DNA of 64,000 bases from Actinacidiphila guanduensis. Its GTDB lineage: Bacteria > Actinomycetota > Actinomycetes > Streptomycetales > Streptomycetaceae. Under the pieces are notes generated by a model. It was not told where the DNA came from. It made no database searches and was given only the letters and a program-made list of their open reading frames with translations. The stretch is taken from NCBI RefSeq assembly GCF_900103985.1, contig NZ_FNIE01000002.1:620001-684000 (forward strand). Reading direction: 5' to 3'. Positions 14,661 to 25,608 of the stretch are shown here, one piece after another. A program made the translations under genes and the position numbers. Numbering within the stretch: position 1 is the stretch's first letter; every line of letters begins with the position of its first letter.

Positions 14661-15908
14661 TCAGCTGTCGGCGAGGGTCCAGTTCTGGGCGGCCGTGCCG
14701 TTGCAGTCGAAGATCTGGAGCTGGGTGCGGTCGGTGGTGGAGCTGTTGGGATCGTCCAGGCACTTGCCCGACTCGGGGTTGACCAAAGAGCCGTTCGCGC
14801 CGGTCACCCAGCGCTGGGCGCCGGTGCCGTTGCACTGCCACAGCTGCACCTTCGTGAAGTCGGCGGTGCCGCTGCCGCTGACGTCCAGGCACCCACCCAG
14901 GGCCCGCAGCGTCCCGCCGTCGCCGGGCGTGTACGTCCAGCGCTGCGCAACGGTGCCGTTGCACCCGTAGATCTGCACGGGCGTGCCGTTCGCGGTGTTC
15001 TGCCCGTCCACGTCGAGGCACTTGCCGGCGATCCCGGAGTGCGCCACGGCCGTGCGCAGTTGCCCGGCTCCGGCCAGCGCGGACTCCACGAGGGTGGCGG
15101 CCCCGCGCATCCCGGCCTCGTTCGGGTGGTACGGCGTACGGCCCGCCGCCGGCCGGTACGTCTCGACCCATGGCGTGGCCGCGCACGCGTCGTGCCCGTG
15201 GCTGGCGGCGGCCAGGTCCACCAGGGTCGCCCCCGCCGTACTCGCCGCGGTCGCGGTCGCGGTGGCGAGCCGGCTGGCGATGCTGCGCTCGTAGGCGGCC
15301 TGGTCATCGGTGAGGGGCACGTTCGCGCAGACCCCCGTATCGGGCAGGATCGTGAAGTAATTGACCAGGTAGACGTGCGCCTGCGGAGCCGCGCTGTGCA
15401 CGGCGTCGACGACGTTCTCCAGCCGCCCGGCCAGCTGGCCGAAGGTCTGGTCGATCGCGTTCCGGTCCACGGACCCGCAGTTGGAGCCGCCCCCGGTCAG
15501 GCACGAGTACGTGTCGATGCTCCCCAGGTAGTTCACGTCGTTGCCGCCGATCGTCACGGTCACCACCTTGGCCGCGCTGGTGACCGCCTGGATCTGCGGC
15601 GGCTGCCCGGACTGCGGGTCCGTCAGCACGTTCGCCGTCGTCGCCCCGCTGCACGACGCGTCCGTCAGGTTCGCCCCGATGTCGCGCGCCACGATGCTCG
15701 CGTAGTTGTTGTCCGACCGCGAGCAAGCGGCCGCACCCGCCCCGGACTGCGTGGGCGGAATCCCGGGCCCGGCGGCGAACGAACTCCCCAGCGCCACATA
15801 GTCGAGCCCCGACCCCCCACCCGCGGCCCCGGCACTCCCCCCGCCCACCACCACAGCGGACACCCCGAGGGCCACCACGACCCCCGCCCCCACCATCCCC
15901 CGCAGCAC
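14661..15908 (-). CDS. Secreted SGNH/GDSL hydrolase with C-terminal ricin-type lectin domain
   Basis: About 415 residues from the GTG at 15908 (411 from the ATG at 15896). A hydrophobic signal peptide is followed by an SGNH esterase/lipase domain: YVALGSSFAAGPG holds the block-I serine, TVTIGGNDVNY the block-III GGND, and YHPNEAGM the catalytic His. The serine motif is GSSFAAG rather than GDSL, as in Streptomyces lipases of the SCO7513 type. From about residue 290 a beta-trefoil of three QxW units (AQRW, AQRW, AQNW) should bind carbohydrate. It is therefore probably an extracellular lipase or acetyl esterase targeted to a polysaccharide. GGAAGGGG precedes the GTG. The upstream frame continues open to 16580 but is satellite DNA. 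Confidence 0.88.
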   Translation of the reverse strand: MLRGMVGAGVVVALGVSAVVVGGGSAGAAGGGSGLDYVALGSSFAAGPGIPPTQSGAGAAACSRSDNNYASIVARDIGANLTDASCSGATTANVLTDPQSGQPPQIQAVTSAAKVVTVTIGGNDVNYLGSIDTYSCLTGGGSNCGSVDRNAIDQTFGQLAGRLENVVDAVHSAAPQAHVYLVNYFTILPDTGVCANVPLTDDQAAYERSIASRLATATATAASTAGATLVDLAAASHGHDACAATPWVETYRPAAGRTPYHPNEAGMRGAATLVESALAGAGQLRTAVAHSGIAGKCLDVDGQNTANGTPVQIYGCNGTVAQRWTYTPGDGGTLRALGGCLDVSGSGTADFTKVQLWQCNGTGAQRWVTGANGSLVNPESGKCLDDPNSSTTDRTQLQIFDCNGTAAQNWTLADS

Positions 15909-16440
15909 CCGCCCCTTCCCCTTGACCTTCCCCCACCCCGACCGTCGTCCCCCACCCGTACGCAAACCGGCCACCGCCCACCTCCACGAGTACGGATGCG
16001 CCCCCGGCGTCCACGGGACCACACCCGAGCCTGGCAACGTTGTCGTGTCCGCAACATAACCCCACCCCCCCACCCAGCCAACCCCCACAACACCCCCCAC
16101 TCCCCCCACAACCGATCCCTTCAACGAGCAGCGACGCCGAGCCGCGGACAGCCCCACGGGCGCGGAGCCGCGGGACGGCAGGAGACGCCGAGGCGGAGGG
16201 ATGGCGAGGGGAGGGGCGGGGAGGCCGCGGAAGCCGGGCGAGGCCGGAGACGGTCCGTCACGGGGCCGCGGCGGAGACGTGGCGAGGTGGGGGCGTAGAG
16301 GCGGGAGCCCAAGCGGCCTGCCGGGAGCCGGGCGCCCTGCGGGCGAGGTCACAGCGGAGTGCGGTGGCCGCGGAACCGGGACGGCGAGGCCGAGGCGGTC
16401 CGTCACCGGGACGCGGCGGAGACGCGGCGGGATGGTCAGC

Positions 16441-16542
16441 CCAGGAGCCCAGGAGCCCAGGAGCCCAGGAGCCCAGGAGCCCAGGAGTCGTGAAGCCGTG
16501 AAGCTTGTGGCCGTGGAGCCGTGGAGCCGTGGAGCCGTGGAG
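16441..16542. repeat. 8-bp-period minisatellite
   Basis: Six tandem CCAGGAGC units (16441-16488, the last ending in T) are followed by two CGTGAAGC units and, after a short break, four CCGTGGAG units (16511-16542). All keep an 8-base period, which is not a multiple of three, so it cannot encode a repeating peptide in one frame. Such arrays expand by slippage. Confidence 0.85.
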
Positions 16543-16667
16543 CCCTGTGGCCGTGGGCGCCGTACGTGCTGCTGGCCCAAGGGAGTTTCGGTGAGGGACC
16601 CGGTGTTCCAAGCTGAAAGGGTGCTCGGCCGCTTCGGGGTAACCCTGGGGTGCCCACGGGGAGGGGG

Positions 16668-16748
16668 CGGGACCTGGGGGGCGAAATGCTTCCGTGTATT
16701 TGTGGGCCGCCAGGCCCGTAAATATACGATTTCGCCCCCCAGGTCCCG
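16668..16748. repeat. 81-nt near-perfect inverted repeat (giant hairpin)
   Basis: Outer arms at 16668-16687 and 16729-16748 are perfectly complementary over 20 bases (CGGGACCTGGGGGGCGAAAT and its complement). The interior continues the helix: after a 5-base bulge, CGTGTATTT pairs with AAATATACG (one G-T) and GTGGGCC with GGCCCGT around a GCCA loop. The fold is one continuous stem of roughly 36 pairs. It lies 157 bases before the AraC start. It could be a very strong terminator, a small mobile repeat or a structured RNA; none can be chosen from one copy. Confidence 0.85.
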
Positions 16749-16905
16749 TCACCGACCTACCGCACCGAGCCGCACCACAAGACACGGCACCACAAGACAC
16801 CGCACGGCACAGCACAACACCGCACCAGACAGCCAAGGCACCGAACCGCACAGCACCGCACCCCCAAAACACCGCACCGCACCGGCCAAAGGAAAGAAGG
16901 GCACC

Positions 16906-17727
16906 GTGACAAGAGAGCAAGCGCTCTGGACGCGAGCCCGCCTCGGCCGCAGCGGCCCCCCTCTCGACCTCCTCACCGCCCGCTTCGACCGCCACGTCTA
17001 CGCCCCCCACGCCCACGCCGACTTCACCATCGGCGTGTGCACCGGCGGCGAGGAGGTCATCGACTACAGAGGCGGCCGTATCCGTACAGGCCCGGGCTCG
17101 ATCGTGGTGCTGGCGCCGGGGGAGGTGCACACGGGCGGCCCGGCGGCGTCGGAGGGGTACGCGTACCGAGCGGTGTACGCGGCGAGCAACCTCCTGACCG
17201 ACGGAGTCACCGGCACCCCCCACTTCAAGGAACCGCTCCTCGACGACCCCGAGCTCGCGGCAGCGCTCCGCACCACCCACAGAGAACTGAGCACGTGCCC
17301 CGACCCACTGGAAGCCGAGTCCCGCATCCCCTGGCTCCTCGCGGCACTGGCCCGCCGCCACTCGACAGCCCGCCCCCTCGACACGGCGGTACCGGGCGCC
17401 GCGACCATCGCCCGCAGCGTCCGCGACCGGCTGGCCGACGACCTCACGGCCCCACCCTCCTTGGCCGAACTCGCCGCCGAACTCGGCATGTCCCGCTACC
17501 AGTTGCTGCGCGCCTTCCGTACGGCGACGGGCATCCCGCCGTACGCGTGGCTGGCCCAGTACCGGGTCGAAAGAGCCCGCGGCCTGCTGGAAGCGGGGCT
17601 GCGCCCGGCCGAGGTGGCGCCATTGGTGGGGTTCGCCGACCAGGCCCACCTGACCCGGTGGTTCCGCAGGGTGCTGGGGGTGACCCCGGCGGCGTACCGC
17701 AACAGCGTTCAAGACGCGCACAGGTGA
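16906..17727 (+). CDS. AraC-family regulator (cupin-type N-terminus)
   Basis: A 273-residue regulator starting at a GTG with AAAGGAAAGAAGGG upstream. The N-terminal cupin-like ligand domain shows HVYAPHAHADFTIGVCTGG and GSIVVLAPGEVHTG, typical of AraC_binding domains in which clustered His residues line the barrel. The DNA-binding half reads LAELAAELGMSRYQLLRAFRTATGIPPYAWL and VAPLVGFADQAHLTRWFRRVLGVTPAAYR. The DMT transporter begins 19 bases after its stop, so the two form an operon; AraC/EamA pairs of this type are frequent and often mediate amino acid or metabolite export under ligand control. The 5' leader is long, C/A-rich and follows the giant hairpin. Confidence 0.9.
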   Translation: MTREQALWTRARLGRSGPPLDLLTARFDRHVYAPHAHADFTIGVCTGGEEVIDYRGGRIRTGPGSIVVLAPGEVHTGGPAASEGYAYRAVYAASNLLTDGVTGTPHFKEPLLDDPELAAALRTTHRELSTCPDPLEAESRIPWLLAALARRHSTARPLDTAVPGAATIARSVRDRLADDLTAPPSLAELAAELGMSRYQLLRAFRTATGIPPYAWLAQYRVERARGLLEAGLRPAEVAPLVGFADQAHLTRWFRRVLGVTPAAYRNSVQDAHR

Positions 17728-17746
17728 GCGGGGCGAGAGTGGGCCC

Positions 17747-18697
17747 ATGACTGCACGCGGCTGGTTCCTGTTCTCGCTGATGGGGGTGGTCTGGGGCATC
17801 CCCTACCTGATGATCAAGGTGGCGGTGGACGTCGTGTCCCCGTCCACCGTGGTGTTCACGCGCTGCGCGCTCGGAGCGCTGCTCCTGCTGCCGTTCGCTC
17901 TGCGCCAGGGCGGCCTGACGCGGACCGTCCGCACGCATTGGCGCCCCATGCTCGCCTTCGCCTGCATCGAGATCATCGGCCCCTGGTTCACCCTGACCGA
18001 CGCGGAGCGCCGGCTGTCCAGCTCGACCTCCGGCCTGCTGATCGCGGGCGTGCCGATCGTCGGGCTCGCGCTGTCGCGATTCCTGGGCACGCGCGAGCAG
18101 TTGGGCACCCGCCGCCTGGGCGGACTGCTGCTGGGCCTGGCGGGGGTGGTCGTCCTCACCGTGCCGCACCTGACCGGGGGCGACGCCCGCTCGCTGGCCG
18201 AGGTGCTGGTGACGGTCGTCGGGTACGCCACGGCGCCGATGATCGCGGCCCGCCATCTGAAGGACGTGCCGACCCTGCAACTCACCGCGCCCTGCCTGGC
18301 GTTGGCCGCGCTGGTGTACGCGCCCGCCGCCGCGGCCACGTTCCCTTCCGCGGTGCCGGCGCCCCATGTGCTGGCCGCCCTCGCGGGGTTGGGCGTGGTC
18401 TGCACGGCCGTGGCCTTCGTCGCGTTCCTCGAGCTGATCAAGGAGGCCGGTCCCGCCCGCGCCACCGTGATCACCTACGTCAACCCGGCGATCGCGGTCG
18501 CCGCGGGCGCCCTGTTCCTCGGCGAGCCGCTGAGCCCGACCATCGTCTCGGCCTTCGTCCTGATCCTGGCCGGCTCGGTGTTGGCGACGGCCGCGGCACC
18601 AGGACGTACTGCGGAGGCTCCGGAACAGCGGAGCGAGGAGCCCCGACTGCCGCCCGCCCCGGCCGGGTTGGCGGAGGAGAGCGTCGAATCCCCCTGA
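17747..18697 (+). CDS. EamA/DMT-family transporter
   Basis: A 316-residue membrane protein with ten predicted helices arranged as two EamA repeats: WFLFSLMGVVWGIPYLMIKVAVD with TVVFTRCALGALLLLPF in the first, and ATVITYVNPAIAVAAGALFLGEPLSP (the signature end of the second repeat) near 245. The last ~45 residues are Ala/Pro/Glu-rich and cytoplasmic. The family exports metabolites, often amino acids or nucleotides; the substrate here is unknown. Co-transcribed with the AraC gene 19 bases upstream. Confidence 0.88.
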   Translation: MTARGWFLFSLMGVVWGIPYLMIKVAVDVVSPSTVVFTRCALGALLLLPFALRQGGLTRTVRTHWRPMLAFACIEIIGPWFTLTDAERRLSSSTSGLLIAGVPIVGLALSRFLGTREQLGTRRLGGLLLGLAGVVVLTVPHLTGGDARSLAEVLVTVVGYATAPMIAARHLKDVPTLQLTAPCLALAALVYAPAAAATFPSAVPAPHVLAALAGLGVVCTAVAFVAFLELIKEAGPARATVITYVNPAIAVAAGALFLGEPLSPTIVSAFVLILAGSVLATAAAPGRTAEAPEQRSEEPRLPPAPAGLAEESVESP

Positions 18698-22152: not shown

Positions 22153-23724
22153 ATGAGCAGCAAGCGCACCCAGTCCCCGCGCGCGGGCATGTCCCGCCGC
22201 CGGTTCGTCACCACCGCGGCGACGCTCGCCGGGGCGGCGGGCCTGGCCGGCACCCTGCCGGAGAACCTCGCCAGGGCCGCGACCGCGCGCCCCGCCAAGG
22301 GCGGCCTGGAGCAGGTCAGGCACGTGGTGTACGTCATGATGGAGAACCGGTCGTTCGACCACTACTTCGGCACCTTCCCCGGCGCCCGCGGCTTCTCCGA
22401 CCCCACCGCCATGACGCTGCCGAACGGCAACTCCGTCTTCCGGCAGCCCGATCCGGCGAACCCGGACGGCTACCTCGAACCCTTCCACATGTCCACCATC
22501 AGCACCGGCGCCGCCGCGGTCCCGTCGCTGTCGCACGACTGGCGCGACCAGCACGCCGCCTGGAACCACGGCGCCATGGACGGCTGGCTGACCACCCACC
22601 TCGCCTCGGACGGCGAGGTCAACGGCTCGTACACGATGGGCTACTACACACGCGAGGACATCCCCTTCCACTGGGCGCTCGCGGAGTCCTTCACCCTGCT
22701 GGACAACTACCACTGCTCGGTGCTCGGCCCGACGGACCCGAACCGGCTGGTGTGGATGTCGGGCACCAACGACCCGCAGGGCCTGTACGGCGGGCCGGTG
22801 CTGGAGACCGTCACGCCCAACCCGCTCACCCACCCGTCGGCCGCGGAGATCCTCTACAAGGCCGGCTACAGCGTCAAGGCGTACTACTCCGACGCGACCA
22901 GCGGCTTCAACGTCTTCTCCTGGTTCGCCAACTTCCAGAACAGGACGGCGCTGCCGGCCGGGCTCTACAACTCCGTGATGACCGGCGGCACCCTCTTCGG
23001 CAACGGGCAGCCCGGCATGGCGGGCGACCCGGGCGCGCCGACGCCCGCCGCCGAGGCGACCCTCGCCTTCGAGGAGGACTGCGCCAACGGCGTGCTGCCG
23101 GACGTGTCCTGGCTGCTGATGCCGAGCGCGGCCGACGAGCACCCGCCCAACCTCCCGGCGGCGGGCGCCCAGTACCTCGCCGCCAAGCTCGAAGCCCTCG
23201 CCTCCAACGAGGAGTTGTGGAACTCGACCGTCTTCGTCCTCAACTACGACGAGAACGACGGGTTCTTCGACCACGTGCTGCCGCCGACACCGCATCCGGC
23301 GGAGTACCCCGAGGAGTTCGTGACGGTGCCCTCGCCCAAGGGCACCCCGGGCGGCGGCCTGCCGGTCGGCGCGGGCTTCCGGGTGCCGTGCGTCATCGTG
23401 TCGCCGTGGACGGTGGGCGGCAGGATCTTCTCCGAGGTCAGCGACCACACCTCGGGCCTGCGGTTCATCGAGGCGGTCACCAGGGCGGGCGGCCTGTCCG
23501 GCCTCGGCCCGGTCACCTTCACGCCGATCAGCAGGTGGCGGCGGCGCACCTTCGGCGACTTCACCGGCGCGCTGCGGCTGCACGACCGCAAACCCGCCCC
23601 GGCCAACACCCAGTTCGAGGCGGCCACCACCGCGGCGAACCTGGCGGCCCAGACCACGGCGGCGGCCCAGCCGATGCCGCCGCGGCCGGGCGCGACGCAG
23701 CACATGCCGCGGCAGTCGCACTGA
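22153..23724 (+). CDS. Tat-exported phospholipase C / acid phosphatase-like phosphoesterase
   Basis: 523 residues from the ATG at 22153, which has GGAAGAGAG upstream. The signal SRRRFVTTAATLAGAAGLAG (14-33) is a twin-arginine type. The mature enzyme belongs to the phosphoesterase (PF04185-like) family of non-haemolytic phospholipases C and AcpA phosphatases: VMMENRSFDHYFGTFPGARG at 61-80 carries the metal ligand and nucleophile region, NYDENDGFFDHV near 369 the second metal site, and SDHTSG near 427 another conserved segment. It should act outside the membrane on phospholipids or other phosphate esters. It lies 29 bases after the triple-repeat NHL protein in the same direction and is closed by a strong hairpin. 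Confidence 0.9.
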   Translation: MSSKRTQSPRAGMSRRRFVTTAATLAGAAGLAGTLPENLARAATARPAKGGLEQVRHVVYVMMENRSFDHYFGTFPGARGFSDPTAMTLPNGNSVFRQPDPANPDGYLEPFHMSTISTGAAAVPSLSHDWRDQHAAWNHGAMDGWLTTHLASDGEVNGSYTMGYYTREDIPFHWALAESFTLLDNYHCSVLGPTDPNRLVWMSGTNDPQGLYGGPVLETVTPNPLTHPSAAEILYKAGYSVKAYYSDATSGFNVFSWFANFQNRTALPAGLYNSVMTGGTLFGNGQPGMAGDPGAPTPAAEATLAFEEDCANGVLPDVSWLLMPSAADEHPPNLPAAGAQYLAAKLEALASNEELWNSTVFVLNYDENDGFFDHVLPPTPHPAEYPEEFVTVPSPKGTPGGGLPVGAGFRVPCVIVSPWTVGGRIFSEVSDHTSGLRFIEAVTRAGGLSGLGPVTFTPISRWRRRTFGDFTGALRLHDRKPAPANTQFEAATTAANLAAQTTAAAQPMPPRPGATQHMPRQSH

Positions 23725-25088: not shown

Positions 25089-25608
25089 GGGTCACTGTCG
25101 GGCTACGAGGGCGCGAAGGGCGTCCGGGAGCCAGGGCGGGGGCGCACCCTCGTAGCGCCCTCGCCCGTACCGCCTCTCACTCCGTACCGGCTTCCGCCCC
25201 ACACCGTCCGCGCCCGTACCGCCTCGCGCGCCCCCGTACCACGTGCCGCGTACCACCCCCCCGTACCGCCTCGCGCGGCTCCGCACCGCCTCCTGGGCCC
25301 CGCCTCCCTGGGTGCCGTACCGCGGCATACACACAAGGTGGCGCGGTCGGCACCCAGGGAGCCGTATGCTGGTCTCGACGCCCTACCACTGCCTTCCTGG
25401 GCGCTTCGCAAGCCGCTGAGCGGGTGATTGGCGTTCGGGCTTCCGTATGCGTATGCTGGTAGATCGTCTGATCCCACTTGCCTGGCGCCTGATGTGATGC
25501 GCCCCCGTGGCGCGTTCCTAATCTCCCGTGGCTGACCGCATCGAGGCGGTTGCAACCAACCTGCGGAGCTGGCGCGTGCCGTTAGTCTCCGAGAGGTTTA
25601 GCTTCCGC
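25089..25608. other. 520-bp leader region of the DEAD-box helicase gene
   Basis: No gene is seen. The first half repeats GTACCGCCTC-like units. An inverted repeat, CTCCCTGGGTGCCG (25304-25317) and CGGCACCCAGGGAG (25348-25361), gives a perfect 14-bp stem around a 30-nt loop. After it the sequence is less GC-rich for about 240 bases up to the helicase ATG, with GAGAGG 18 bases before the start. Cold-inducible RNA helicases often carry long structured leaders, so regulation there is plausible. Confidence 0.6.

Follow-up and report, generated by a model that had tools for sequence, protein, structure and literature searches.

REP, ERIC and similar dispersed palindromes are most familiar from Gram-negative bacteria. 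REP/REPIN elements with RAYT are dispersed extragenic palindromes with one-strand features and a REP palindrome length of about 20-40 nt, and HUH-type enzymes recognize asymmetric hairpins with features like a bulge and a wobble pair. RU-1 is the same element as ERIC. RU-1 (127 bp), RU-2 and RU-3 are presented as small mobile intergenic sequences of enterobacteria, found in multiple intergenic regions and likened to MITEs (PMC2759123). The hairpin analyzed below is one copy of a dispersed, non-coding, folded repeat that stands between genes of Streptomycetaceae. A literature search with short sets of terms returned no description of this hairpin family in the titles and abstract starts among the matches listed.

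The window, a stretch of 64,000 nt from Actinacidiphila guanduensis, carries an 81-nt hairpin at 16668-16748 with exact 20-nt outer arms, coordinates and arms being as given in the preliminary description. The copy is composed as follows:

16655..16761, + strand: full extent of the family match to covariance model R1 (103.6 bits on the + strand, the window copy itself being among the sequences used to build R1; 48 bits on the - strand)
16668..16687, + strand: outer 5' arm, perfect over 20 nt (sequence, fold)
16688..16692, + strand: 5-nt bulge GCTTC, on the 5' side only (fold, alignments)
16693..16708, + strand: inner 5' arm CGTGTATTTGTGGGCC, containing the family core TATTTG (fold, alignments)
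16709..16712, + strand: GCCA tetraloop (fold)
16713..16728, + strand: inner 3' arm GGCCCGTAAATATACG, which includes the family core TAAATA as well as the U partner in the invariant G.U pair (fold, alignments)
16729..16748, + strand: outer 3' arm, perfect over 20 nt (sequence, fold)

The plus strand of 16658-16758 folded as a single long hairpin of −79.9 kcal/mol, whereas dinucleotide shuffles gave a mean of −43.1 kcal/mol (z −9.8) and 0 of 200 were as stable; the earlier statement that the structure lies far beyond a normal terminator holds. The minus strand of the same stretch gave a weaker fold of −64.5 kcal/mol (z −6.7). The inner part had been described as a continuation of the pairing down to a 4-nt loop. 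A 16-bp inner stem is indeed present and the loop is GCCA in the predicted fold, but the pairing is not simply continuous, as the 5-nt bulge interrupts it on the 5' side. Likewise, the reported wobble pairs are G.U pairs on the plus strand but become A.C mismatches when the minus strand is read. An Rfam search of window positions 15500-18000 gave nothing above cut-off, the only match being MIR5084 with 23 bits against a cut-off of 110 (E 0.28).

Multiple copies had been expected to indicate a MITE-like repeat and covariation a structured RNA; both signatures are present. The home genome holds four distinct copies, two beyond the window copy being found by blastn and the fourth, longer one by model R1, which was built from 27 copies. 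Within the genus, 10 of 35 genomes matched by blastn and 23 of 35 by R1, the home genome counted in both cases. In a sample of the family, R1 matched 32 of 150 genomes and 5 of 17 genera, one of these (g14) with marginal matches only (E 4e-4 to 7e-4). The R1 match counts in both scans include both strands of the palindrome, so that copies are fewer than matches. With model R2, for which 40 diverse copies were used, 4 of 394 genomes of the class had hits among the matches listed when filters were strict; all four belong to the same family and the home genome is one of them. With such filters, and for the matches listed, absence outside the family is a weak negative. A contig scan for the exact core yielded 41 stretches in five organisms, namely Actinacidiphila acididurans, Streptomyces fildesensis and Streptomyces sp. 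HPF1205, H39-S7 and PH10-H1, Actinacidiphila being a member of Streptomycetaceae. No match to the hairpin was obtained by blastn in the plasmid and phage collections. Instead of a single-copy sequence lacking conservation, which had been named as the outcome that would speak against the idea, we therefore found dispersed copies with conserved pairing.

Model matches were about 106-147 nt long, which corresponds to a family unit of roughly 110-140 bases. The chromosome of genome G018 contains at least 34 element places; the 34 among the matches listed all lie at 1.86-6.37 Mb of 9.12 Mb, with none in the outer 20% on either side. A check for conserved neighbors showed mostly unrelated flanks at representative loci. 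The exception is the long form conserved at one orthologous site of G004, G010, G024 and G027 (L090, L091, L098 and L094/L178, respectively), where the same gene starts about 20 nt downstream of it. The repeat unit that copies share extends beyond the hairpin in G008/G025 and in G029. For 6 G029 copies (loci L169-L173), the consensus left flank includes a stretch similar to the 5' arm some 150 nt ahead of the complete element, and this stretch belongs to the longer unit. G049 has two oppositely oriented copies (L112:1042-1186 and 1501-1645) separated by about 315 nt; the pair is flanked by two convergent genes, and no gene was called in the spacer.

In alignment A1, changes on both sides with pairing kept were seen in 16 of 36 pairs; 97.9% of the cells were paired and 0 of 500 shuffles reached any of five measures. 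Alignment A2, the diverse set, showed compensatory change in 19 of 30 pairs, with 195 cells against 58.3 in shuffles, 0 of 500 being as good. The G.U pair was invariant in 40 of 40 aligned copies and the pairs of UAUUUG/UAAAUA were nearly fixed. The bulge position held 5 letters in all 27 rows of A1 (mostly GCTGC) and fewer in some long-form rows of A2. The long form has about 28 nt extra in an extended apical arm and was found at 12 loci from 12 genomes among those printed; some of the 136-137-nt copies in G007 and G018 are not native long forms but short ones containing a nested repeat. In G088 the sequence of the outer stem is very different; the long stem, the 5' bulge and an AUUUG/AUAAAU core recur.

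The two strands of the element are not equivalent. In all 87 located copies, oriented by the model, the plus-strand fold was more stable than the minus-strand fold. G.U cells outnumbered A.C cells by 25 to 4 in A1 and by 42 to 9 in A2 (three near-fixed columns omitted per alignment), an excess that is not significant when distinct combinations of pair and type are counted (12 to 4, p 0.08; 14 to 6, p 0.12). Taken together, the stability and the G.U excess indicate that the folded plus strand is probably the form that is selected or recognized, RNA and single-stranded DNA being equally compatible with this.

Some further repeats were seen in and around the copies. A second palindromic repeat of about 27-30 nt (TGGGGGCACCCCCGGCCGAAGGTTGGGGGA-like) occurs inside several copies, within either the apical loop or the outer stem, including orthologous sites in G007 and G019 (for example L268, L270, L280, L298, L311 and L321). 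A similar stretch lies outside an element in L126, and the window has no copy of this repeat within 5 substitutions. A GCGCCTGCGGCGGGCTTTTCCCC-like stretch, consisting of a hairpin and a T run, recurs in the same orientation upstream of several G018 copies (L126, L131, L134, L136, L137 and L138) and is also present at some hairpin-free sites. A second small covarying hairpin in the upstream 45 nt, suspected by eye, was not supported (mean z +0.23 upstream and +0.09 downstream).

The sites of 25 G018 copies were compared with the orthologous sites in close relatives where these were found; for G021 the comparison covered 8 of the 25. Automatic scoring as present/absent/partial gave 14/8/0 for G007, 5/14/1 for G019, 2/17/2 for G020 and 1/7/0 for G021, whereby remnants, such as that at the L122 site in G007, count as present and stumps as absent. 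The L127 site is occupied in G018 and G007; in G019, G020 and G021 the two convergent stop codons there are separated by nothing but a short spacer. In G018 the element at the L130 site sits within the loop of a terminator-like hairpin, which G019 and G020 possess in intact form. At the L137 and L124 sites in G007 and at the L123 site in G020 and G021, the palindrome has seemingly been deleted and a stump left. Since the sites scored as absent include such stumps, part of the polymorphism represents loss. E3 of L125 was considered as a clean empty-site pair and discarded, a gene fragment being involved. The orthologous sites are too diverged to fix the element borders for a target-site duplication.

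Where the element was kept, in 22 orthologous pairs, 42 doubly changed cells were still paired, compared to 6.9 in the shuffle null, and pair-breaking single changes numbered 60 against 111. The presence of the element varies between orthologous sites, and its shape is kept while many letters change. At several sites the core differs by a whole subfamily, as for L131 in G007 with 6 double changes and no single one. Such whole-subfamily swaps suggest gene conversion or re-insertion instead of stepwise compensation, and these processes explain part of the paired changes. The selection on structure that the preliminary description had read from the wobble pairs holds, although gene conversion accounts for some of the paired changes.

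Placement relative to genes was determined for 84 copies, mostly the best-scoring among the matches listed and not independent of each other, after 3 of 87 had been dropped as orthologues of L091. Genes were called by a home-made, unvalidated script based on GC content by codon position, and each gap was taken from the model match. With strands given relative to the element, the flanking genes were +- in 28 copies, -- in 25, ++ in 19 and -+ in 7, with one side uncalled in 5; a single copy was called inside a gene. In 43 of 84 copies a convergent gene had its stop codon no more than 60 nt from the element's 3' end (median gap 26.5 nt among 56 genes), whereas in 11 a co-directional gene had its stop codon this close to the 5' end (median 158 among 48). 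Both stops were near in 9 copies and the sign test gave p 2e-8. By genome, 3'-side versus 5'-side stops numbered 18 to 8 in G018, 7 to 1 in G001 (where the gap difference was not significant in a rank test, p 0.12), 4 to 0 in G029, 3 to 1 in G021, 1 to 0 in G026 and 10 to 1 in the mixed set. The copies of G008, G025 and G000 had no stop codon within 60 nt on either side. A polar preference for gene 3' ends is therefore present in most but not all carriers. In the set of flanks inspected by eye, the 3' side is C-rich and a U tract is not evident in either direction.

On balance we favor the view that the family is a non-autonomous, strand-asymmetric, mobile palindromic repeat that is spreading in Streptomycetaceae. 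A trans-acting enzyme would recognize the folded plus strand, namely the bulge together with UAUUUG/UAAAUA and its invariant G.U, and would insert copies with polarity behind stop codons, into the terminator region or next to it. The inserted element would then persist in the 3' intergenic region, where its stable hairpin is either maintained or tolerated, and may serve there as a terminator or as an mRNA 3'-end structure; it would be lost by deletion of the palindrome, with a stump remaining. A narrower version, in which a non-Y1 enzyme reads the shape and a few core letters of a strictly strand-specific, hairpin-only element and inserts it with polarity at transcription terminators, is speculative and on present grounds unlikely. 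If true, stems of very different sequence, for example those of G088 and G018, would stay substrates of one kind of machinery.

The position near stop codons may also be read in another way, with the element being primarily a cis-acting RNA (a 3' UTR stabilizer, an RNase III substrate or a terminator without a U tract) that is retained for this function and spreads by duplication and gene conversion. The short median gap to the convergent stop codon, the 42 doubly changed cells with pairing kept at orthologous loci and the ordinary hairpin found at the same place in some orthologues (L128 and L130 sites) would all fit such a function. However, the mRNA of the anchored gene reads the element's minus strand, with its A.C mismatches and weaker fold, the flanks are C-rich without an evident U tract, and the element is missing at most of the sites examined in G019, G020 and G021. 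We regard this explanation as unlikely.

For the mobile repeat that we prefer, a mobilizing enzyme was not found in the two genes scanned between neighboring copies, which are ordinary (CobU and GH92). A REP/RAYT- or IS200/IS605-type HUH (Y1) transposase that moves, or once moved, the element as single-stranded DNA would suit a one-strand asymmetric hairpin with a bulge and an invariant wobble pair. Of the 11 genus genomes with at least 10 R1 matches, 6 (G008, G013, G019, G021, G025 and G029) have PF01797 (Y1_Tnp), compared to 1 of the remaining 24 (G009, which has no R1 match), a difference with a Fisher p of 0.0017 for a cut-off of 10 that was picked after seeing the table. Between carriers and non-carriers the difference was not significant (6 of 23 vs 1 of 12, p 0.38), and 17 of the 23 carrier genomes, including G000 and the match-rich G001, G007, G017, G018 and G026, had no PF01797 match. 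The coincidence of Y1 with a high match number may reflect a shared load of mobile DNA. Around 12 Y1 genes in six genomes, scanned for about 9 kb on each side (one of them beside a contig end), 11 surroundings were without an element at E <0.01; in the single exception, contig G021:C171, the Y1 gene at 22948-23310 and the element at 25379-25495 (L350) are about 2 kb apart. Nor was a switch of orientation seen at dnaA (4.67 Mb) in G018, where a hand count gave 14+/7- on the left and 8+/5- on the right (p 1.0). Movement by such an enzyme thus appears improbable.

Pairing might also be kept by mutation and not by selection, if template switching within the palindrome copied one arm onto the other. 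The double changes of L131 in G007 agree with this and other sites lean likewise, but such correction should remove the bulge and the G.U pair, yet the latter is found in every aligned copy, and G.U prevails over A.C in both alignments, though not significantly by distinct combinations; we consider this explanation very improbable.

Finally, the window copy had been linked to the AraC/EamA operon, and the neighboring genes are:

14661-15908, - strand: GDSL lipase with a ricin-type lectin domain
16906-17727, + strand, the same as the hairpin: AraC regulator
17747-18697: EamA transporter

The copy sits between divergent genes, some 145 nt ahead of the AraC start, and is not located at a stop codon. 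Directly to its left, 16439-16555 consists of short tandem repeats with CAGGAGCC and GTGGAGCC units, and to its right 16757-16880 is C/A-rich and G-poor. None of 13 loci (some overlapping) from orthologues of AraC/EamA and of the lipase contained an element copy; they include the AraC/EamA region of G017, where the upstream region of the AraC orthologue is unrelated to that of the window. The proposed link to the operon was accordingly abandoned, as the hairpin is not a conserved leader when no copy is found by the operon's orthologue. That it is a conserved structured leader RNA of this operon can practically be dismissed, since, for all its position upstream of AraC on the same strand, it was not found upstream of the G017 orthologue and other family members adjoin unrelated genes. 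From the copy-free loci and the unrelated G017 upstream region, the window copy is best read as a lineage-specific insertion, and it is probably neutral at its site.

With at least 34 places in G018, covariation, a fixed strand and a polar stop-codon bias, the family constitutes a defined system for how such elements move, and lets one ask whether they set transcript 3' ends in bacteria in which terminators are often without U tracts. It is also a warning for annotators that long hairpins in intergenic regions of Streptomycetaceae may be repeats and not local regulators.

Compared to known systems, the family shares with intrinsic terminators a stable GC-rich hairpin that is often near stop codons, but differs by its conserved AT-rich core, its bulge, its length of about 110-140 nt and its many related copies; the hairpin followed by a U tract was not seen when flanks were judged by eye. 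Like MITEs it is short and non-coding, with terminal inverted repeats and several copies whose number varies between genomes, but no target-site duplication could be fixed at the diverged orthologous sites, and no autonomous partner with the same ends was seen among CobU, GH92 and the 12 Y1 surroundings. With REP elements of the REP/RAYT system the family shares dispersed palindromes and one-strand features. REP has a conserved tetranucleotide at the foot of its palindrome; at this place, inspection by eye showed a GACGTGAG-like left flank in some subfamilies. The REP palindromes are short, whereas the unit here is much longer (about 106-147 nt), and Y1 (RAYT) is missing from most carriers, the 6 with PF01797 being match-rich. 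The Ype, Efa, Bor and NEMIS elements are likewise repeated stem-loops; they differ in their hosts (Yersiniae, Enterococci, Bordetellae and Neisseria, respectively), and covariation across genera together with short and long forms is seen in the Streptomycetaceae family. RU/ERIC elements are similar in length and in occupying many intergenic regions. In the genomes scanned, the present family was seen only in Streptomycetaceae, and its one-strand asymmetry, invariant G.U, 5' bulge and polar anchoring at stop codons are features of its own. As with elements of the ERIC/SLS type, it is a dispersed imperfect palindrome in intergenic DNA that is polymorphic at orthologous sites, and by this analogy it is best read as an element like ERIC or NEMIS in kind.
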